Source of the DNA: Acidobacteriota bacterium
GTDB lineage: Bacteria > Acidobacteriota > Vicinamibacteria > Vicinamibacterales > UBA2999
Length of the DNA stretch: 64,000 nt
NCBI GenBank assembly: GCA_016789705.1
Contig: JAEUQR010000022.1
Coordinates: 62,001 to 126,000, forward strand
Direction: 5' to 3'
In this document: positions 1 to 25,832 of the stretch, piece after piece
How the letters are laid out: each line of letters begins with the position of its first letter
Position numbering within the stretch: the stretch's first letter is position 1
The notes under the pieces: model-generated
Seen by the model: the letters and a program-made list of their open reading frames with translations, nothing else
What the model was told of the DNA's origin: nothing
The model's database searches: none
Position numbers and translations under genes: made by a program

Positions 1-1
1 C

Positions 2-1003
2 GCCAGCATCTCGGCGCTCGTCATCTCGCTCGTGCTCGGTCCGTGGCTCATCCGTCGCCTGCGCGACTTCCAGATCGGGCAGGTGATCCGCCAGGAGGGG
101 CCGCAGTCGCACCGCGCCAAGGCCGGCACGCCCACGATGGGCGGCCTGCTGATCCTCACGGCCTCGCTCGTGCCGACGCTGCTCTGGGCGGATCTCACGA
201 ACGTGTTCATCTGGATCGCCGTGCTGTCGACGGCCGCCTTCGGCGCCATCGGCTTCCTCGACGACTACCTGAAGATCACGCGGCGGTCATCGGGCGGCCT
301 CGCCGCTCGTTACAAGATGGGACTGCAGCTGCTCGTGGCCGGCCTCGTCGGCCTGACACTGCTGTACCTGGCGTCGCAGAACCAGTACACGACGCGGCTC
401 ATCTTCCCGTTCTTCAAGCAGCTCATCCCCGACCTCGGCTGGGGCTACGTGCCGTTCGCGATGCTGCTGCTGACCGGCGCCTCGAACGCCGTCAACCTCA
501 CGGACGGCCTCGACGGGCTCGCCATCAGCACGTTCGCGGTGGCGGCGGCGTGTTTCACGGCGCTCGCCTACGTGACCGGCCATGCCGTGTTCGCCGAGTA
601 CCTGCTGCTCGTGCGCATTCCGGCGACCGCCGAACTGACGGTGTTCTGCGGCGCGCTCGTCGGCGCGGCGCTCGGGTTCCTCTGGTACAACTGCTATCCC
701 GCCGAGATCTTCATGGGGGATGTCGGTTCGCTCGCCCTCGGCGGCGCGCTCGGCACGGTCGCCATCCTCATCAAGCAGGAGATCCTGCTCGGCATCGTCG
801 GCGGCGTCTTCGTCATGGAAGCGGTGTCCGTGATCCTGCAGGTGGGCTCCTTCAAGCTCACCGGCAAGCGCATCTTCCGGATGGCGCCGCTGCACCATCA
901 CTTCGAGCTGCTCGGCTGGAGCGAGCCGAAGGTCATCACCCGTTTCCTCATCATGGCGATCCTCTTCGCCCTGCTGAGCCTCACCACGCTGAAGCTCCGA
1001 TGA
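2..1003 (+). CDS. mraY: MraY, phospho-MurNAc-pentapeptide transferase (5' truncated)
   Basis: This integral membrane enzyme moves phospho-MurNAc-pentapeptide from UDP onto undecaprenyl phosphate to make lipid I. The frame is open from base 2 with no start codon, so the N-terminus lies outside the window. The 333 residues seen are most of the usual ~360. Family motifs are present: a DDYLK aspartate pair, [21 protein letters not shown] and APLHHHFE near the C-terminus, separated by many hydrophobic segments. The stop codon overlaps the murD start in an ATGA junction, so translation is probably coupled. The window-internal GTG at 32 is not the true start, because the residues before it ([10 protein letters not shown]) continue the first transmembrane helix. 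Identification is secure. Confidence 0.97.
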
Positions 1004-2379
1004 TGGCTGCCACCACGCCTCTCGGGCCCCGCGGACGGGCATTCACAGTCCGCGGACTACGCGTGCTGGTCGTCGGCGCGGCGCGCAGCGGCCTGGCCGC
1101 CGCGGAGCTGCTGGTCGCGCGCGGCGCCGCGGTCACCCTGACCGATCGCGCGGCGACGATCCCCGGCGAAGACCGCCTGCGCGCCATCGGCGTGACGCTC
1201 GATCTCGGCGGTCACGATGCCGCGCTCTTCACGGGCGCCGAGCTCATCGTGACGAGTCCCGGCGTGCCGCCGGAACTGGCGCCGCTCGCGGCAGCGCGGA
1301 CGGCCGGCGTGCCGGTCATCGGCGAACTCGAACTGGCCTCACGGTGGCTCGCCGGCAAGGTCATCGCCATCACCGGCACGAAGGGCAAGTCCACCACGAC
1401 GACGCTCGTCGGCCGGATGCTCGACGCCTCTGGCCTGCGCGCGCTCGTCGGCGGCAACATCGGCGTGCCGCTCAGCGCGCAGGTCGAGGCCTCGACGCCC
1501 GAGACGTGGCACGTCGTCGAAGCGAGCAGCTTCCAGCTCGAGACCACCGACACCTTCCACCCGGCCATCGCCGCCCTGCTCAACCTGTCGGCCGACCACC
1601 TCGATCGCCATCCCGACGAGGCGTCGTATGCGGCGGCCAAGGCGCGGATCTTCGCCAACCAGACGGCGGCCGACTGGAAGGTGCTGAACGCCGATCAGCC
1701 CGAGACGCTGGCCCTGGCCGAGGGCACGGCGGCCCGCGAGGTGCGGTACTCGTCCACGCGCACGCTCGACGCCGGCGTCTCGGTGCGCGACGGCGTCGTC
1801 CGGTATCGGGGGGCGAACGGCGAGGTGCCGCTCGCGCCGCTCGCCGCGGTGCGCCTGCCGGGCCGGCATATGACGTCGAACGTGGTCGCCGCCTGCGCCA
1901 TCAGCCATCTGGCGGGTGCGACGCCGTCCGGCATGACGGCCGCGCTCGAGTCGTTCACCGGCCTCGAGCACGTGCTGGAGTTCGTGCGCGAGCTCGACGG
2001 CGTGCGCTACGTGAACGACTCGAAGGCGACCAACATCGATGCCGCCGGTCGCGCCATCGAGAGCTTCGACGACGTCGTCGTCATCGTCGGCGGCAAGTAC
2101 AAGGGCGGACGCTTCGAGGATCTGGCGGGGCCGCTCACCGGCCGCGGACGCGGTGTCGTCGCGATCGGCGAGGCGCGGCCGCTCGTGCGGGCGGCGCTCG
2201 GTGACGCCGTGCCGTTCGTGGAGGCTGCGTCGATGGACGACGCCGTGGCGCGGGCGCGCGAACTCGCCAGACCCGGCAGCGTGGTGCTGCTCGCGCCGGC
2301 GTGTTCCAGCTTCGACATGTTCTCCGACTACGCGGCGCGCGGGCGCGCGTTCAAGGCAGCGGTGGGGGCGCTGGGGTGA
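1000..2379 (+). CDS. murD: MurD, UDP-MurNAc-L-alanine:D-glutamate ligase
   Basis: This cytoplasmic ligase adds D-glutamate to UDP-MurNAc-L-Ala using ATP. At 459 residues it has the normal length. It begins with a Rossmann-like nucleotide domain ([17 protein letters not shown]), followed by the Mur ligase ATP loop GTKGKST near residues 126-132, the ASSFQLE segment and the [10 protein letters not shown] motif. The C-terminal domain contains YVNDSKATN and GGKYKGG. Two adjacent ATG codons occur at 1000 and 1003; the first overlaps the mraY stop (ATGA) and is preferred. About 270 bases then separate it from ftsW, the only loose joint in the cluster, and that gap holds an inverted-repeat element and a palindrome. 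Confidence 0.96.
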
Positions 2380-17792: not shown

Positions 17793-19187
17793 ATGGCGGC
17801 CGGAGCCCTGCACGCCAGTGACGCACTCCTGCCCACGGGCTGGGCACGCGACGTCGTCATCGAGTGGGACGCCGCCGGCCGCATAACCTGGGTCAGACCC
17901 CATTCTGGGTGGAGCCAGACTTCCGGGGTGGCACGTGCCGCCGGGCCCGTGCTGCCGGGGATGCCGAATCTGCATTCGCACGCGTTTCAGCGCGCGTTTG
18001 CCGGGCTCGCGGAGTTCCGTGGCTCGTCGGACGACAGCTTCTGGAGCTGGCGCGACCGCATGTACCGCGTGGCGAACGCGGTCACGCCCGAGGACCTCGA
18101 CACGATTGCGACACATCTCTTCGTCGAGATGCTCGAGGCCGGCTATACGTCGGTGTGTGAGTTCCATTACCTGCATCACGACGTCGACGGCCGGCCCTAC
18201 GCCGACCGGGCCACGCTCGCGCGCGCGATCGTGCGCGCGGCCGACCGTGCCGGCATCGGCCTCACGATGCTGCCGGTGTTGTACCAGCAGAGCGGCTTCG
18301 GCGGCGCGCCGCCCACCGACGGACAGCGCCGGTTCATCAACCGCACCGACGCGCTGCTCGATCTCGTGCGGGCGCTGCGCGTCGCGCATGGCGACATGGT
18401 GCGGGTCGGCCTGGCGCTGCACTCGCTGCGTGCAGTGACGCCAGAGGCCATGCGCGACGCGCTTGCCGGGCTCGCCACCATCGACCCGTTCGCGCCCATC
18501 CACGTGCATGTCGCCGAGCAGATGCGGGAAGTGGAAGACTGCGTGGCGTGGAGCGGGCAGCGTCCCGTGGCGTGGCTGCTCGACCACGCACCGGTGGACG
18601 CCCGCTGGTGCCTCGTGCATGCGACACACATGCTCGACGACGAAGCGGCCCGCGCCGCCGCGACCGGCGCCGTGGCCGGCCTGTGCCCGACGACCGAAGC
18701 GAATCTCGGCGACGGCATCTTCGGGTTCCCGCGCTGGGGCGAGGGACGCTGGGGCGTGGGCTCCGACAGCCACATCACCGTGAACGCGGCCGATGAACTG
18801 CGGATGCTCGAGTACTCGCAGCGTCTGGCGACCCATCGCCGCAACGTCGCGGCCACGCCACGCGAGCCTCACGTCGCCACGGCGCTCACCCTCGCCGCCG
18901 CGGCCGGTGGCGCGGCGGCCTCCGGCCGCCCGATTGGCGCCCTTGCGCCCGGTGCGCGCGCGGACTTCGTCGTGCTCGACGCGCGGCATCCGGCCATTGC
19001 CGACCTGCCGGCGCCGGCGGCGCTCGACGCGCACGTTTTCGCCAGCGGCCGCGGTCGCGCCATCGCCACGGTGGTCGTCGGTGGCCGCACGGTGGTTGCC
19101 GGTGGCCGGCATCCCCTGCGCGACGACGCGGCCAGCGCGTTCGTGAGGGTGCGCGCGCTCCTCGCGGCACGGACCCCGGCCCCGTGA
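17793..19187 (+). CDS. hutF: HutF, formimidoylglutamate deiminase
   Basis: HutF is an amidohydrolase-superfamily metalloenzyme that deiminates N-formimino-L-glutamate to N-formylglutamate, which HutG then cleaves. The 464-residue protein shows the metal motif NLHSHAFQRA near residue 61, WSWRDRMYR, FHYLHHD, HVHVAEQ, and the later VGSDSHITVN. One oddity is a near-palindromic stretch GGGTCAGACCC at 17890-17900 within codons for ITWVRPHSGWSQTSG. This region, between the first beta strands and the PGMPNLHSH metal loop, looks longer than usual and may be an in-frame insertion of an interspersed repeat. The frame is intact, so the enzyme is probably functional. Confidence 0.93.
   Translation: MAAGALHASDALLPTGWARDVVIEWDAAGRITWVRPHSGWSQTSGVARAAGPVLPGMPNLHSHAFQRAFAGLAEFRGSSDDSFWSWRDRMYRVANAVTPEDLDTIATHLFVEMLEAGYTSVCEFHYLHHDVDGRPYADRATLARAIVRAADRAGIGLTMLPVLYQQSGFGGAPPTDGQRRFINRTDALLDLVRALRVAHGDMVRVGLALHSLRAVTPEAMRDALAGLATIDPFAPIHVHVAEQMREVEDCVAWSGQRPVAWLLDHAPVDARWCLVHATHMLDDEAARAAATGAVAGLCPTTEANLGDGIFGFPRWGEGRWGVGSDSHITVNAADELRMLEYSQRLATHRRNVAATPREPHVATALTLAAAAGGAAASGRPIGALAPGARADFVVLDARHPAIADLPAPAALDAHVFASGRGRAIATVVVGGRTVVAGGRHPLRDDAASAFVRVRALLAARTPAP
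17888..17911. repeat. Palindromic GGGTCAGACCC motif inside hutF
   Basis: GGGTCAGACCC (17890-17900) is an exact 5+1+5 palindrome, flanked by a second CTGGG. It resembles the GGGGTCTG/CAGACCCC core of the intergenic element at 44.4 kb. It is translated in frame within hutF. Relation to that element is inference from the short shared core. Confidence 0.4.
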
Positions 19188-20002
19188 CGGCGCCGGCGCG
19201 TCGTTCGCGTCGGGTCGTGGGGGTCGTGCTGGCGGTGCTGGCGTGGTGCGGCAGCGCACGTCCCGCGCGGGCGCAGCAGCCCTTCCTCGTGGACGATGCC
19301 GAGGTCACGCCGGCCCGCGTCTGGCACGTCGAACTGAGCAGCCAGCTGGACGTGCTGCGGCCGGCGGCGTTGCCGGCCCGCTGGCAGAACGTGTTCGAGT
19401 GGGAAGTGAACTACGGCGCCGGGGCGCGCCTCGAACTGGCGGCGCTGCTACCGTTCGTGAGCCTCGTCTCCGATGCCGCCGGCCGGCGCGCGGCCGCCCA
19501 CGGCATCGGCGACTCCACGCTCGCGGCCAAATGGCGGCTTACGCGCGATCCCGGCGCGCGCCACGCGCTCTCCCTGGCCGCCATGCTGGAGCTTCCGAGT
19601 GGCAGCCGCGCCCGCGGACTCGGCACCGGACTCGTGGACTACGGACTCAACCTCGTCTCGCAGCACCGTGTGCACGAGCGCGCCGTGGTGCGCGTCAACG
19701 GCGGGGCGGTGCTCGCCGGCAACACCCAGTCCGGTGCCGTGGGCATTCGCGAACGGGGCTCGGTGCTCACGGCTGGCGCCTCCATCGTGACGCCGCTCAC
19801 CGCGCGCGCGCAGGTGGGGGGAGAACTCACCCTGGCCTGGTCGCAGAAGGCCTCGCTCGGCGGGTCGGCCATCGGGTGGCAATTCGGCACGAACATCACG
19901 GTGCGCAACGGGGTGACGCTGGATGCCGGCGTGCTCGGCGGCTGGTTCGATGCCAGCCCACGCTTCGGCGTTCAGGTCGGCATGAGTGCGGACCTTCGCT
20001 GA
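19184..20002 (+). CDS. Exported outer-membrane beta-barrel protein (phenol-degradation MetA-like fold)
   Basis: The 272-residue product starts with a Tat-free Sec-type signal (basic RRSRR, hydrophobic VVGVVLAVLAWCG, then ARPARAQQ cleavage region near residue 31). Alternating polar and hydrophobic strands with many Tyr/Trp/Gly residues follow, ending at a terminal [20 protein letters not shown] and NVFEWEVNYGAGARLELAA fit the transporter-like barrel family often annotated as MetA-pathway of phenol degradation. It overlaps the hutF stop (GTGA), so it is co-transcribed with the hut genes, yet it precedes the phospholipase D-like gene. Uptake of a hut substrate or an envelope role are both possible. 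Confidence 0.7.
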   Translation: MTAPARRSRRVVGVVLAVLAWCGSARPARAQQPFLVDDAEVTPARVWHVELSSQLDVLRPAALPARWQNVFEWEVNYGAGARLELAALLPFVSLVSDAAGRRAAAHGIGDSTLAAKWRLTRDPGARHALSLAAMLELPSGSRARGLGTGLVDYGLNLVSQHRVHERAVVRVNGGAVLAGNTQSGAVGIRERGSVLTAGASIVTPLTARAQVGGELTLAWSQKASLGGSAIGWQFGTNITVRNGVTLDAGVLGGWFDASPRFGVQVGMSADLR

Positions 20003-20132
20003 ACCCGAGGCGGATTTCCGAGGCCGGCGCGCGGGAGTTCCCGTGGTGACGGGCCGCGGAAGTCGGCCGGCGGACCGTTCGGCGCGTGTCTCTCGCAGAG
20101 CGGTTGGCACGCCTTTGGAAGCTCGTCTGGCA

Positions 20133-20168
20133 GGCAGGTGCCACGCCCGGCAGGCGGAGCCACCTGCC
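20133..20168. other. Stem-loop upstream of the phospholipase D-like gene
   Basis: GGCAGGTG (20133-20140) and CACCTGCC (20161-20168) are exact 8-base inverted repeats with a 20-base loop. They end 17 bases before the GTG start at 20186. The 183-base gap holds no other feature I can support and no clear promoter. The hairpin could be a transcription attenuator or mRNA stabiliser. Confidence 0.3.
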
Positions 20169-20185
20169 GACAGCGCAGGTGCCCC

Positions 20186-23100
20186 GTGAGTGTCTCCCGC
20201 CGCGGACTTGTCTGGCGCAACGTCGCTGCCGGCGCCCTGTTGGTCCTGGCGGCCGCTGGCGTGGCCGTCGCCGCTCCGCAGCCGCCAGAGCCGGCGGCCG
20301 GCGTGTCACCCGCCGCGTGGGCGGAGCTGGCGCTGGCCCGCTGCCGCGCCGAAACCGAGCAATGGCGCGCTGACGACGCGGCGCTCGCCACCGAGCTGGC
20401 CGCCGGCACGCCGTCGCGGGAGCAGGCGTCGTTCCTCGCGCGGGAAGACGCGGCGCGAGCCCTGGCCAGGCGCAACGCACTCCGTGGTGGTCTCGCGCGT
20501 CTTGGCACGCTGATGTTCGGCATCGACCCGAAGGTGTCGGTTGACGGTGCCCCGTCGGAGCCGCTGCGGAAGGTGCTCGAAGGCCTGCTCTCCGGGCTCG
20601 ACATCTGCGAACTCGAAGCCGTTGAAGCCACGATCGTGCTCGGTTTGTTCGGCATGACGTTCGAGGCGGAACTGGCGGCACGGCTCACGTCCGAGCGGCA
20701 GTTCGAGGCCGTGGACGCGCGGATTCGCGCACGCCTCGCCGCGGGTGACTCACCGGAGCAGGTCTACGTGGCGTTGCGGCCGGCGTCGGAGGCGGCGTTC
20801 CTCGCGCACCTCGACGCGGTGGTGGCCACCGCGCTCACGCGGCACGCCGCGGAGGGGCGGCCGCGGGTGCCTCAGGCGGCGGCGCGGCGGCGGGCGTTCC
20901 TCGAGTACCTGCCGTACGCGGCCGAGCCGATCCGCATCCAGTTCTATCTGCACGGCAAAGTCGACGCGCTCGAAGGCGCGCTCGGCGTGGCACTCCCCGA
21001 CGGCGTCGACCAGATGCTCTTCGCCATGGTGCGCGGACGATTCCACGACTCGCTGCCGCGCCTGCGCCGCCTTCGCACGCAGGCGCCAGACGACGTGGCG
21101 CGCGCCCTGGCGCCGACGCTCGATGAGTGGTTCCGGCGCGTGGCGATGCCGAGCCTGGGCCGCGCGCTCGGGCGCGACCCGCACGCCGCGTACTGGTTCT
21201 ACGTGCAGTCGGGCGGCGTCGTGCGGGCTGGCACGGCTTCGACCAAGTCCAGCGTGGTGGTGCCGGCGCCGGCTCTCGTGCTGCGGGACCTGCGCGGCCT
21301 CGGCCTTGACGCCGCCGTCGCGCGCCTTGGCGCGGCCCGACTGCCGATGGCCTTCCAGGCCGCCCACGCCCGTGTCGAAGCGGCGTTCACCAGCCTCACG
21401 CTCTCGCGCGCGGAGCTGGCGGCGCGGCTCGACCGGCGTCGCATGCCGCCGGCGGTTGCGGCGCGACTGCGCGCCCTCATGGCGCACGAGCGCAAACAGG
21501 CGCTGTCATCCCTCGATCTCTTCACGCTGCTCATCAGGGACGCGCACCTCGTGCGCGGCCGTCTGGACGGTGAGGTCGTGCGCACCGGCATCGAGGTCTT
21601 CTTCGAGGCCAAGTCCGAGCGCGTGAATGCAGAAGTGCAGCGGGTACTGCAGGAGGCGCCGGCGGCTGACCCGCGGCTGGCCGCCTACCTTCGCACCACG
21701 GCGGCGATGATGCTCGAGATCGAGCGGCGGCAGGCCACCCACGACGCGTTCCGCGAGGGCACGGGTGGCGGCGCCGTGGGCTGGCTGCGCGCACGCACGG
21801 TGGGCAGTTCCGTGCCCGTGAGCCTGGCCGCGCCGGGCGGCGTCACCGGGCCGGCGTTTGCCGACCTCGTCGACGTGCTGTCGCCGAAGAACCGCGAGTC
21901 GGGCGACGACTACCGCGGCCGCGCCGTCAGCGGCCTGGACCTCGTGCACGACGGCCGCGAGTATCACGCGGCGCTACTCGAGGTGATCGACACCTCGCGG
22001 CAGTTCCTCAACATCTCGTCGTTCGACTGGAAGACCGATGCCGGCGGCCGCGACATCGCCTACCGGTTGATGGCGAAGAAGCTCGGCATCGAGGGCGCCG
22101 CATACGCGCGCTTCTTCGCGACGTTCTCCGGCGGCCTGCCGCTCGAACCCGCGGCACCCGCGGTCGTGGCCTTCTACGACATTCCCGCCACGCGGATGAA
22201 ACATCTGCTCGTCTGGCACGCGTTCATGACGAGCACCCATCCTGACGTGGTGGCGGCGCGCGAGGCCGCGCTCGCGGCCGGCGCGTCACTCGCCTGCACG
22301 ACGGTGGCCACGTGTGGTGATCTCTCGACGCTTGGCGCCCTCGCCGAACCGCGTGATGAGGCCGGCGCGGCGTCGGCCGGGCGGCAGGCGTACCAGCGCA
22401 TCGCCGCGCTCTTCGCCGAGGGGCCGGGGAGCGAGGGCGAGATCGCGCGCCGCGTGTCACTGGCCGGGTTCTCGGAGAGTGCGGCCGCGGTGCGGCGCTT
22501 CGTGCGGCGTGTCGGCCTGCGCCGTGCCGATCGGCCCGACGAGCCGTTCCCGATCAGCATCGTGGCCGACGGCAAGCAGCCCTTCTTCAACATGCACTGG
22601 GGGCAGCGCAGCGAGCAGTTCCCCTACGTGCTCACCGAACCGGTGCGCGACGTCTACTTCCTGCTGCTCGAGTTCGACGTGCACGTCGTCATGTGGAAAG
22701 GACCGGTCGAGTTCCCCTGGCACATCGGCGCCGTCCCCTGGCCCGGCCGCAAGGTCCTCGGCCGCGTGCCGTTCCCGTTCGTTCCATGGCCATGGCTTTC
22801 GGCCGTGCCCGGCTTCGGCTGGGCGAACGCCGCCACGAGCCTCGGGCTGCAGTGGGTGCTCGCCTCCGATCTGCGCATCTGGTGGGCCTCGGTCAACCAC
22901 ACGAAGAGCTGGTCGAGCGAATCGCTGGCGCTCGAGAGCGGCATGGGGATGGGCTCGAAGTATTTCAACGAGTTCGACACGCACAAGACCTGGCACGACA
23001 TGGGCGTGCTGGCGCGCGGCGACATCGTCGACGACGTCAACGATCACTTCGTGGACGTCTTCAACGAAGCGCGCGTGAACAACACCGGGCTGCCGGCCTC

Positions 23101-23842
23101 GCGCGGCGTCCGCGTGCCGAAGCTGCGGTATGCGGACTACGAGCCGGGCCCGCACACCGACGTCAACGGCGATGCCTCGCGCGCGTGGCTGCTCACGACG
23201 CACCCGGAGCGCGGCGACGCCAACTACCGCGGCGTCTACCTGGCGGCCCTCGCGGCGGCGCGACACAACGTCTACATCGAGAACTCGTTCTTCTCGGACC
23301 CGCTCATCGCGCGCATGCTGATGCGGAAGGCGCGCGAGTTCCGCGCCCGCGTCTCCTGCGAGGGGCTTGACGACCACGCCTGCGCGCGGCGGCGCCGCGA
23401 GGCGGTGCAGATCCACATCGTACTCCCCGACCTCACCGACAAGCCGATCGTGGATGCCGTCGGGGCCTCCGACTTCCACGAGATGCTGCACCTCGGCATC
23501 AAGGTGCACCGCTGGAATCCGCGGCGGGGCTGGTCGGCGGCGCGGATGCTGCACTCGAAGGTCTGGCTCATCGACTACGAGCCCGGCCGCGGTGGTCTCG
23601 CCTACGTGGGGGCCGCCAACGCCACGCAGCGCAGCCATCTGGCCGACAACGAGGCCGGCATCCTCTCGAACGATCCGGCGTTCGCGGCGCAGGTGCACGA
23701 TCGCATCTTCGCGGCCGACACCACCGTGGCCTCGCGGCTCGAGACGGTGGAGAATCTCTACGTCGTGCGCAACTCCAACGCGGCCGTGCGGGCCAGCCGA
23801 TGGCTGCGCCGGCTCCTCGTCGAACTCCTGTGGATGGTCTGA
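20186..23842 (+). CDS. Very large exported phospholipase D-like protein
   Basis: The 1218-residue product starts at a GTG with a Sec signal (RRGLVWRNVAAGALLVLAAAG, split as basic head plus hydrophobic core, cleavage near AVAA). Residues about 35-585 are Ala/Arg-rich and mostly helical with no family I recognise. Two phospholipase D half-domains follow. The first (about 590-960) carries HTKSWSSE (His905, Lys907, Glu912), an HKD motif with Glu for Asp, then GMGMGSKYFNEF. The second has a canonical HSKVWLID (His1123, Lys1125, Asp1130). A Trp/Pro-rich stretch lies at about 835-875. Cardiolipin-synthase or phosphatidyltransferase-like chemistry on envelope lipids is plausible. The LpxR-like gene starts one base after its stop. 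Confidence 0.8.
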   Translation: MSVSRRGLVWRNVAAGALLVLAAAGVAVAAPQPPEPAAGVSPAAWAELALARCRAETEQWRADDAALATELAAGTPSREQASFLAREDAARALARRNALRGGLARLGTLMFGIDPKVSVDGAPSEPLRKVLEGLLSGLDICELEAVEATIVLGLFGMTFEAELAARLTSERQFEAVDARIRARLAAGDSPEQVYVALRPASEAAFLAHLDAVVATALTRHAAEGRPRVPQAAARRRAFLEYLPYAAEPIRIQFYLHGKVDALEGALGVALPDGVDQMLFAMVRGRFHDSLPRLRRLRTQAPDDVARALAPTLDEWFRRVAMPSLGRALGRDPHAAYWFYVQSGGVVRAGTASTKSSVVVPAPALVLRDLRGLGLDAAVARLGAARLPMAFQAAHARVEAAFTSLTLSRAELAARLDRRRMPPAVAARLRALMAHERKQALSSLDLFTLLIRDAHLVRGRLDGEVVRTGIEVFFEAKSERVNAEVQRVLQEAPAADPRLAAYLRTTAAMMLEIERRQATHDAFREGTGGGAVGWLRARTVGSSVPVSLAAPGGVTGPAFADLVDVLSPKNRESGDDYRGRAVSGLDLVHDGREYHAALLEVIDTSRQFLNISSFDWKTDAGGRDIAYRLMAKKLGIEGAAYARFFATFSGGLPLEPAAPAVVAFYDIPATRMKHLLVWHAFMTSTHPDVVAAREAALAAGASLACTTVATCGDLSTLGALAEPRDEAGAASAGRQAYQRIAALFAEGPGSEGEIARRVSLAGFSESAAAVRRFVRRVGLRRADRPDEPFPISIVADGKQPFFNMHWGQRSEQFPYVLTEPVRDVYFLLLEFDVHVVMWKGPVEFPWHIGAVPWPGRKVLGRVPFPFVPWPWLSAVPGFGWANAATSLGLQWVLASDLRIWWASVNHTKSWSSESLALESGMGMGSKYFNEFDTHKTWHDMGVLARGDIVDDVNDHFVDVFNEARVNNTGLPASRGVRVPKLRYADYEPGPHTDVNGDASRAWLLTTHPERGDANYRGVYLAALAAARHNVYIENSFFSDPLIARMLMRKAREFRARVSCEGLDDHACARRRREAVQIHIVLPDLTDKPIVDAVGASDFHEMLHLGIKVHRWNPRRGWSAARMLHSKVWLIDYEPGRGGLAYVGAANATQRSHLADNEAGILSNDPAFAAQVHDRIFAADTTVASRLETVENLYVVRNSNAAVRASRWLRRLLVELLWMV

Positions 23843-23843
23843 C

Positions 23844-24995
23844 ATGCGTCGCGCCTGCCGCCTCGGCCTGATCGCGGGTCTCGGTGCGGCCATCCTGGCC
23901 GCGCTGCCCGGCGTTGCCGCCGCGCAGCCCATGCCGTCAGCGGCAGACGCCCCTTCCGCCGTGTTCGAGGAAGCGCTCGTCTCCGGCATCTCCCTGCTCC
24001 ATGACAACGACGGCTGGCCCCATCCCGGGAACTCGTTCAAGGACGACAACTACTCGGCGGGCCTCGAGATCCGCGTCAATGGCCGCGTCATCCCGCGCGC
24101 CGGCCTGACGCGTCCGCTCGACGGGCTCGACTGGCTGACGCGGGTGAACCGGATGCATGCCCGTGCCACGCGGCGGTTCCACTCGGCGCAGGTCTTCGGG
24201 CTCGCCTACACGCCCGATGTGCTCGACACCGACGTGCCGCAGCGCGACGACCGCCCGTTCGCGTCGCTCGTCGGCCTGGCCGTGCGGCGCACCTCGGTGC
24301 TCGGCGAGGCGGGCGACCGCGCCTGGTCGAGTGAGTTCGCCATCGGCGTGCTCGGGCTCGACGCGGCGCGTCATGTCCAGACGCTGCTGCACCGCACGCG
24401 GCGCTGGATGACGGGGAATCCCACGCCGGTCGATCCGCTCGGCTGGACCAACCAGATCTCCGATGGCGGCGAGCCGACCGCGCTCTACCGCGTGGGGTAC
24501 GAGCGGCTGCTGGCGGGAGACGGCGCGGAAACGGCTCGCAAGCACTGGCAGGTCACCGGCACTCTCGATGGCAGCGTGGGGTATCAGACGAACGCGTCGG
24601 CGGCGATCACGGCTCGCGCCGGTGTGTTCACGTCGGAGTTCTGGGAGTTCGTGAGCGGCATCCGCAGCGCCGGCGCAGGCCGGCAGCAGCCGGCGCCGGG
24701 CGGTGTGCCGCGCTGGGACCTGTTCGCCTTCGGCCTCGTGCGTCCGCGGCTGGTCGCGTGGAACGCGCTGCTGCAGGGGCAGTTCCGCGCGAGCGAACAC
24801 ACGGTGCGCGTGAAGAGGCTCATTGGCGAGTGGGAGGGCGGCGCGGGCGCCTCCGTGCCGATGGGGTCGTGGCATCTGCAGGGGGTCGTTCAGGTCGCGC
24901 AGGGCCGCACGACGGAGTTCGTCGCCCCCAAGGCACGGCTCTACACGTGGGGTACGATCATGCTGCTCGTGAGCCGGGAGGCGCGCGGCCGCTGA
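23844..24995 (+). CDS. LpxR-family outer-membrane lipid A deacylase-like protein
   Basis: LpxR proteins are outer-membrane barrels that remove the 3'-acyloxyacyl group of lipid A. The 383-residue product has a signal peptide ending AAAQ near residue 28. It then shows the DUF2219 pattern: LLHDNDGW, KDDNYSAGLEIRVNG (calcium/active-site Asn-Asp region), YTPDVLDTDVPQRDDRPFAS (equivalent to the DRPYAG segment), and terminal beta strands ending MLLVSRE. It starts one base after the phospholipase D-like gene, so both are made from one message. Deacylase activity is inferred from family membership. Confidence 0.8.
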   Translation: MRRACRLGLIAGLGAAILAALPGVAAAQPMPSAADAPSAVFEEALVSGISLLHDNDGWPHPGNSFKDDNYSAGLEIRVNGRVIPRAGLTRPLDGLDWLTRVNRMHARATRRFHSAQVFGLAYTPDVLDTDVPQRDDRPFASLVGLAVRRTSVLGEAGDRAWSSEFAIGVLGLDAARHVQTLLHRTRRWMTGNPTPVDPLGWTNQISDGGEPTALYRVGYERLLAGDGAETARKHWQVTGTLDGSVGYQTNASAAITARAGVFTSEFWEFVSGIRSAGAGRQQPAPGGVPRWDLFAFGLVRPRLVAWNALLQGQFRASEHTVRVKRLIGEWEGGAGASVPMGSWHLQGVVQVAQGRTTEFVAPKARLYTWGTIMLLVSREARGR

Positions 24996-25007
24996 GCGGC
25001 GCGGCGC

Positions 25008-25832
25008 TCAGTGCGTCAGCGTGTAGAGCACGGCGTTGATGCCCACGGCGTAACCTTCCGGCGAGAACTGCAGGAAGAACTCGTGGTCCTCGCCCTCGCG
25101 TTCCCAGGCATCGCCGATGTCGGTGTTGTGCGTCATGAGCACCATGATGCGGCCGTGGCTGTCGGCGATCATGCGGAAGTTCGCCACCGGGCTGTCGGGG
25201 CCGCGCTCGGACGTGTTGCCGCCGCTGCGCCGCCAGAAGTTGATGCTCGTCACCTGCGGCAGTGTCTTCACCGTGAACATCGACGTGCGGATCGGATGGT
25301 CCGCCGGCACGTCCACGATTTGGTGTTCGGGCAGCACCTTGCGCATCTCGCCGGCCCACTGATCCCAGGCGCGCGTGCCCCAGAAATCGTCGACCCACAG
25401 GAAGCCGCCCTTGAGCAGGTAGGCGCGCAGGTTCGCCGCCTCGGCCTCGTCGAAGGCTGCCGTGCCGACGTCGGTCGCCATCGTGAACGGGCAGTCGAAG
25501 ATCTCGGGATCGCTTGCGCGCACGACCCAGTAGTTGGGCTCACCTTCGGGGCCCATGCTGACGCGCGTCTTCGTGAGTTCTTTCACGCGCGTGAGCAGGT
25601 TGATGGCGGCATACGGATAGTCGGTGGCCCAGCCCATGCCGTTGGCCTCGCGGCGTACGCTGCGGTACATCATCTTGCAGTGCGTGAAGGCGCCATCCTG
25701 TGGCGCCGTCGTCCTGAAGCGTGGTGGCACCCACGGGCCCTCCGGCAGCCGGCCCCACTGCGCGGCAGCGGTCGCCGACAGCGCGGCGATGGCGAGCGCG
25801 AGAGCCAGCCCGGACCAGCGGCGGCGGGTCAT
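25008..25832 (-). CDS. Exported DUF4159 domain protein
   Basis: The 274-residue product has a signal peptide (RRRWSGLALALAIAALSATAAAQ). A DUF4159 domain follows, with DYPYAAINLLTRVKEL, the GGFLWVDDFWG segment and a terminal region where a glutamine amidotransferase-like fold ends (EFFLQFSPEGYAVGINAVLYTLTH, given here in pieces). In other bacteria DUF4159 domains appear in membrane complexes with MoxR ATPases, but no such genes are nearby. A TATGAT hexamer ends 6 bases before the ATG, with no room for a ribosome-binding site, suggesting a leaderless mRNA. It converges on the LpxR-like gene with 12 bases between. Confidence 0.85.
   Translation of the reverse strand: MTRRRWSGLALALAIAALSATAAAQWGRLPEGPWVPPRFRTTAPQDGAFTHCKMMYRSVRREANGMGWATDYPYAAINLLTRVKELTKTRVSMGPEGEPNYWVVRASDPEIFDCPFTMATDVGTAAFDEAEAANLRAYLLKGGFLWVDDFWGTRAWDQWAGEMRKVLPEHQIVDVPADHPIRTSMFTVKTLPQVTSINFWRRSGGNTSERGPDSPVANFRMIADSHGRIMVLMTHNTDIGDAWEREGEDHEFFLQFSPEGYAVGINAVLYTLTH

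Follow-up and report, generated by a model that had tools for sequence, protein, structure and literature searches.

A candidate envelope-lipid-modifying gene pair in an acidobacterial genome: a large PLD-superfamily protein encoded next to an LpxR-family protein

Do a gene for a large phospholipase D (PLD)-like protein and an adjacent gene for an LpxR-like lipid A deacylase act together on the lipids of the bacterial envelope? This question is raised by a 64,000-nucleotide stretch (referred to as the window) of contig JAEUQR010000022.1 from a bacterium of the phylum Acidobacteriota, whose genome assembly comprises 5.0 Mb in 199 contigs and is 99% complete. A first-pass annotation of the window had proposed that an outer-membrane barrel, the PLD-like protein, and the LpxR-like protein are encoded in one direction as an envelope-lipid remodelling module. 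All three open reading frames are present on the + strand (Table 1). Our analysis favors a smaller unit, in which the PLD and LpxR genes form a two-gene, translationally coupled cassette that would modify envelope lipids. This is the best explanation of the locus, although our confidence in it is evenly divided.

The PLD-superfamily protein

The 1218-residue PLD-like protein held up on reading frame, motifs, and predicted fold alike. In an alignment with 20 acidobacterial PLDs, its first HKD-type motif matches the HxKx4D pattern column for column and is followed by a WHD segment, and its second motif is canonical, with GAAN and RS...NE after it. Profile-profile comparison (hhalign) of four aligned homologues with 15 acidobacterial two-HKD PLDs of the cardiolipin-synthase type gave a probability of 99.5 (E = 9.1e-23) over 232 columns that spanned both motifs. 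Structure prediction, which the first-pass annotation had suggested as a check on the PLD half-domains, returned a PLD fold for residues 571-1218 (predicted template-modelling score, pTM, 0.68). This model matched solved PLD structures with a Foldseek probability of 1.00 and Z scores of 25-31 over 310-376 residues; the matched structures were F13, PLD3/4, PssA, PLD1/2, and Streptomyces PLD. Single-sequence searches did not detect the first PLD half. Pfam PLDc_2 matched the second half only (E = 5.1e-10), and only the second HKD half was seen well by NCBIfam, with scores (bac_cardiolipin, 37.5 bits against a cut-off of 290; ClsB, 27.4 against 281) below the curated equivalog cut-offs for cardiolipin synthases (Cls). 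The human PLD matched by sequence profile was PLD1, weakly (E = 0.004). Together, the two motifs, the predicted fold, and the profile match indicate that the large protein is a genuine two-HKD PLD-superfamily enzyme. The fold matches point to no one activity, and its sequence would be compatible with either hydrolysis or transfer of phosphatidyl groups.

Table 1. Features of the locus, with coordinates in the window or residue numbers of the encoded protein
Feature	Position	Strand	Description
PLD-superfamily protein	20186..23842	+	1218 aa; GTG start; predicted exported
Signal peptide	residues ~1-30		part of PLD protein
N-terminal region	residues ~31-570		helical, unmatched
PLD catalytic region	residues ~571-1190		followed by amphipathic C-terminal segment
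Inserted helical stretch			roughly 170-200 residues inside first PLD half-domain (predicted model)
First HKD-type motif	22898..22921	+	H905-T-K907-S-W-S-S-E912; Glu replaces Asp
Second HKD motif	23552..23575	+	H1123-S-K1125-V-W-L-I-D1130
LpxR-family outer-membrane protein	23844..24995	+	383 aa; predicted lipid A 3'-O-deacylase; 1 base 3' of PLD stop
Outer-membrane-barrel-like protein	19184..20002	+	272 aa; Phenol_MetA_deg family; placed outside PLD-LpxR unit

The first-pass annotation correctly noted Glu912 in place of Asp in the first motif. This Glu is kept in all four homologues, motif 1 being identical in the three from other genomes, and the two His and two Lys are likewise shared by all of them. 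Human PLD3 is active although its second motif reads HKE; its active site is built by His, Lys, and Asn, and the Glu lies 20 Å away, where it adds to stability (PMC10783504). Because PLD3 works with an HKE motif whose Glu is far from the active site, Glu912 is, by analogy, no sign of inactivity and no argument for lost activity.

The PLD protein appears to be exported. Its N terminus (MSVSRRGLVWRNVAAGALLVLAAAGVAVAAPQPP) lacks Cys and has an Arg-rich start followed by a hydrophobic stretch (residues 8-33). The six cysteines of the protein fall into three pairs (53/141, 704/710, and 1058/1066); all four homologues share the four cysteines of the PLD core, and the 53/141 pair could be compared in fewer rows. 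This pairing suggests disulphides formed outside the cytoplasm. As the first-pass annotation had supposed, the N-terminal region has no known match: its ~540 residues gave no convincing hit in Pfam, NCBIfam, PHROGs, or PDB sequences, and a profile of the region matched nothing. Its relatives were found only among these orthologues, making it an uncharacterised region on a known catalytic fold. Prediction of residues 31-1218 from five rows of close relatives gave a mean predicted local distance difference test (pLDDT) score of 37.5, because of which the N-terminal fold is not readable. A weak match to a COMM-domain protein among PDB sequences (E = 8e-4) involved Ala-rich helices and was taken as composition, and a similarly weak match in another genome (G010; E = 0.0095) lay inside an apparent ABC-transporter permease and was taken as chance. 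An alignment that included separate N-terminal PLD fragments was dropped, as these fragments were misplaced.

Three groups of known proteins resemble the PLD protein. PssA, the phosphatidylserine synthase of E. coli and Haemophilus, is a cytoplasmic, peripheral membrane enzyme. It has the PLD fold (Z of 27-29 over 361-364 residues), but unlike the window protein has no exported N-terminal region. PLD3 and PLD4, which are lysosomal 5' exonucleases with HKD/HKE motifs, share the fold (Z of 28-30), a Glu in one motif, and a non-cytoplasmic location, which is predicted for the window protein. By contrast, the Glu of PLD3 is in motif 2 instead of motif 1, and no sequence-level match was found. The cardiolipin synthases ClsA, ClsB, ClsC, and ClsO have two HKD-type motifs, the PLD fold, a W(H/R)D segment after motif 1, and a canonical second motif, as does the window protein. 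ClsO of Acinetobacter is a PLD-type cardiolipin synthase of the outer-membrane surface that makes phospholipid outside the inner membrane, and its high-confidence homologues all carry a lipoprotein signal (PMC12846801). If the signal-peptide reading is right, the window protein would likewise act outside the cytoplasm. However, compared to Cls enzymes (about 400-500 aa), it has the additional ~540-residue N-terminal region, the insertion in the first half, Glu in motif 1, and coupling to lpxR. Judged by its sequence, it is not a ClsO, as it has no lipobox, is far longer, and scores far under the Cls cut-offs.

The LpxR-family protein and conservation of the pair

The identification of the downstream product as LpxR-like was upheld by a Pfam LpxR match well above the cut-off (E = 2.3e-28; 99.5 bits against 26; residues 33-374). 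LpxR proper is an outer-membrane barrel that deacylates lipid A in a Ca-dependent manner. The key residues of LpxR are N9, D10, T34, and H122 (PMC6260217). Like Salmonella LpxR (PDB 3FID), the window protein appears to have the catalytic His and an Asn-Asp pair: His183 aligns with His122 of 3FID, Asp56 and His183 do not vary across the 21 acidobacterial family members compared, and Asn55 is nearly invariant. By contrast, Ser71 occupies the Thr34 column and Met the position of Glu128, a residue that likewise varies across most of the acidobacterial family. The alignment with 3FID begins at residue 43, and the correspondence to N9, D10, and T34 therefore comes from family columns only. Of the active-site residues that the first-pass annotation had marked for checking, Asn, Asp, and His appear to be kept, and Thr appears to be replaced by Ser. 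Since lpxC is present in the same genome, lipid A is probably made. The LpxR protein probably trims it. Of 396 genomes of the phylum, 21 (the window genome included) encode an LpxR-family protein. The closest relative found outside the genus (G262; L073 1087-2460) belongs to the same class, is 29% identical, and seems to carry additional residues ahead of the barrel.

A single base lies between the PLD stop and the LpxR start (TGA-C-ATG), as had been claimed. A comparison across the order (162 genomes) found PLD homologues in this genome (G000), in two other species of its genus (G003 and G004; 87% and 82% identical), and in a more distant genome (G278; 58%). LpxR of the window type was present in the same three genus members and as one marginal fragment elsewhere, and both genes are absent from the sister species G001 and G002. 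The junction in the three species is TGA-N-ATG (TGA-C-ATG twice and TGA-G-ATG once). Ratios of nonsynonymous to synonymous substitution rates (dN/dS) among these species were 0.19-0.22 for the N half of PLD, 0.09-0.18 for its C half, and 0.21-0.26 for LpxR. These values imply that both are real genes and not chance reading frames, with purifying selection strongest in the PLD catalytic half. Conserved pairing, which the first-pass annotation had named as a check, was borne out in part: the 1-base pair occurs in all three genus species that carry either gene, but in one genus only, and the G278 homologue is unpaired. Because these carriers are close kin and may reflect a single gain, the pairing supports coupling but establishes no general rule. 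A contig scan with two short peptide patterns returned only the same three relatives, which does not exclude other phyla; plasmid and viral collections contained no relatives; and a literature search found no account of a PLD-LpxR pairing. The cassette is rare and was seen in one genus.

Proposed role and competing explanations

Gene order suggests that the two proteins may jointly remodel the lipids of the outer membrane. In the proposed cassette, the exported PLD enzyme would act at the periplasmic or outer-membrane side and, by way of a covalent phospho-histidine intermediate, either cleave phosphatidyl groups or transfer them; its N-terminal ~540 residues and helical insertion probably serve as scaffold, membrane-docking, or partner-binding parts. 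The LpxR-type barrel would strip lipid A of its 3'-acyloxyacyl chain, and co-production would thereby alter phospholipid and lipid A in one membrane. A narrower version, which we consider rather unlikely, is a dedicated two-enzyme operon in which an exported PLD-type transphosphatidylase of new architecture acts on phospholipids that reach the outer membrane and is coupled to the lipid A deacylase, so that phospholipid conversion and the trimming of lipid A stay in balance. That a phospholipid can be made outside the inner membrane is a recent finding, for which the PLD-type enzyme ClsO is the precedent (2026; PMC12846801). If true, the coupling of a PLD-type enzyme to a lipid A deacylase would take the ClsO idea to another phylum, the Acidobacteriota, and would offer a natural gene pair for probing the balance of lipid A and phospholipid.

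Several observations weigh against such a cassette. Because residues 900-1218 of the structure alignment were seeded with PLD homologues, the fold and profile evidence are partly dependent, and model confidence is low for some of the insertion. Motif 1 also carries Gly where Asn is usual, and the absence of a lipobox Cys makes attachment of the protein to the outer membrane uncertain. The pairing is known from a single genus of close kin and could stem from one gain event, and the neighbourhoods of the other 20 acidobacterial LpxR loci gave neither a PLD motif nor a PLD profile match. The G278 protein, which is the sole distant PLD homologue found, has no LpxR beside it, and a multicopy repeat splits its gene near residue 249 (contigs C69 and C7; L122 and L029). 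Finally, the G003 orthologue has an in-frame TGA at codon 45 (L027 200-202, G003:C160), where the window genome encodes Trp. This TGA may be an assembly error or an early inactivating change, and in the latter case the PLD gene may be decaying in places.

The sequence that interrupts the G278 gene recurs at nine sites across that genome, with several copies at contig ends, as would be expected of an insertion sequence, and the gene also has a frameshift near its 3' end. By eye, the reading frame of the repeat begins like an IS3-type OrfA. The short peptide that the repeat encodes at the break matched no Pfam family, and the transposase reading thus rests on copy number and position. Separately, VFZL01000007 (L032) is titled 'Acidimicrobiia bacterium', yet this contig belongs to a genome in the order of the window, and the title is likely a naming error.

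The same observations can be read in other ways. The PLD protein could be a secreted or periplasmic phospholipase (or a phosphodiesterase or nuclease) that scavenges phosphorus and carbon, with LpxR adjacent by operon convenience. Exported PLD-superfamily members are often hydrolases, the PLD gene adjoins histidine-utilisation genes, and the fold match cannot separate phospholipases (Streptomyces, Moritella), the exonucleases PLD3/4, and synthases. Retention of the 1-base LpxR junction in three species argues against scavenging, as do top sequence-profile matches to enzymes of the cardiolipin-synthase type and not to nucleases, and we regard this role, too, as somewhat improbable. A lower probability still attaches to a PLD protein that is a non-catalytic, structural or lipid-binding component of the envelope, leaving LpxR as the sole active enzyme. 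This possibility draws on the two deviations of motif 1 from HxKx4D(x)6GSxN (Glu for Asp and Gly for Asn), the disrupted G278 homologue, and the in-frame stop in G003. Yet all catalytic His and Lys residues are retained, the catalytic half is the most conserved, PLD3 is active with its HKE motif, and the motif-1 Asn is also missing from several of the compared acidobacterial PLDs.

Adjacency would be meaningless if the slot that separates hutF from the DUF4159 gene took up varying cargo and the three genes in it were unrelated. The content of this slot indeed differs among genus members, and the PLD gene has an unpaired homologue in G278. Such a reading of the locus is very unlikely, as no genus member carries PLD without LpxR or the reverse, and the pair keeps the same 1-base spacing and is under similar purifying selection. 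Two further candidates were set aside. Anti-phage defence, raised by weak DrmC and ZorC matches, was dropped when PADLOC gave nothing, and a PLD effector of a type VI secretion system was set aside on the basis of the N-terminal signal sequence and of the scanned parts of the window, where no injection genes were seen.

The barrel gene and the surrounding locus

The genes of the locus run on the + strand in the order hutG, hutU, hutF, barrel, PLD, and LpxR, and are followed on the - strand by genes for a DUF4159 protein, CorA, and aspartokinase-homoserine dehydrogenase. The barrel protein matches Pfam Phenol_MetA_deg (E = 3.6e-7), and its start overlaps the hutF stop by 4 bases. Its membership as the third part of the module proposed by the first-pass annotation was not supported by comparison with relatives, in which it is unlinked to PLD and LpxR. 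In G002, the stretch from hutF to the DUF4159 gene holds a barrel orthologue but neither PLD nor LpxR, whereas G003 and G004 carry PLD-LpxR with no barrel match anywhere in their genomes; a 100-N gap lies directly upstream of PLD in the G004 scaffold and the G003 contig starts there, which makes the absence at that exact spot uncertain. Because of this reciprocal distribution, the barrel was left out of the unit and is, by sequence comparison, a separate gene beside the histidine-degradation genes.

The nearest named relatives of the window contig are the Acidobacteriota contigs JALHON010000160 and CADEFD010000128, from metagenome-assembled genomes. Across the genus, the interval from hutF to the DUF4159 gene (19184-25832 in the window; also L053 3087-6317 and L052) is a variable slot, which holds the barrel only in G002, PLD-LpxR in G003 and G004, and the barrel with PLD-LpxR in this genome. 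In G001, the slot contains a gene for a 1076-aa Sortilin/BNR-repeat protein on the opposite strand.

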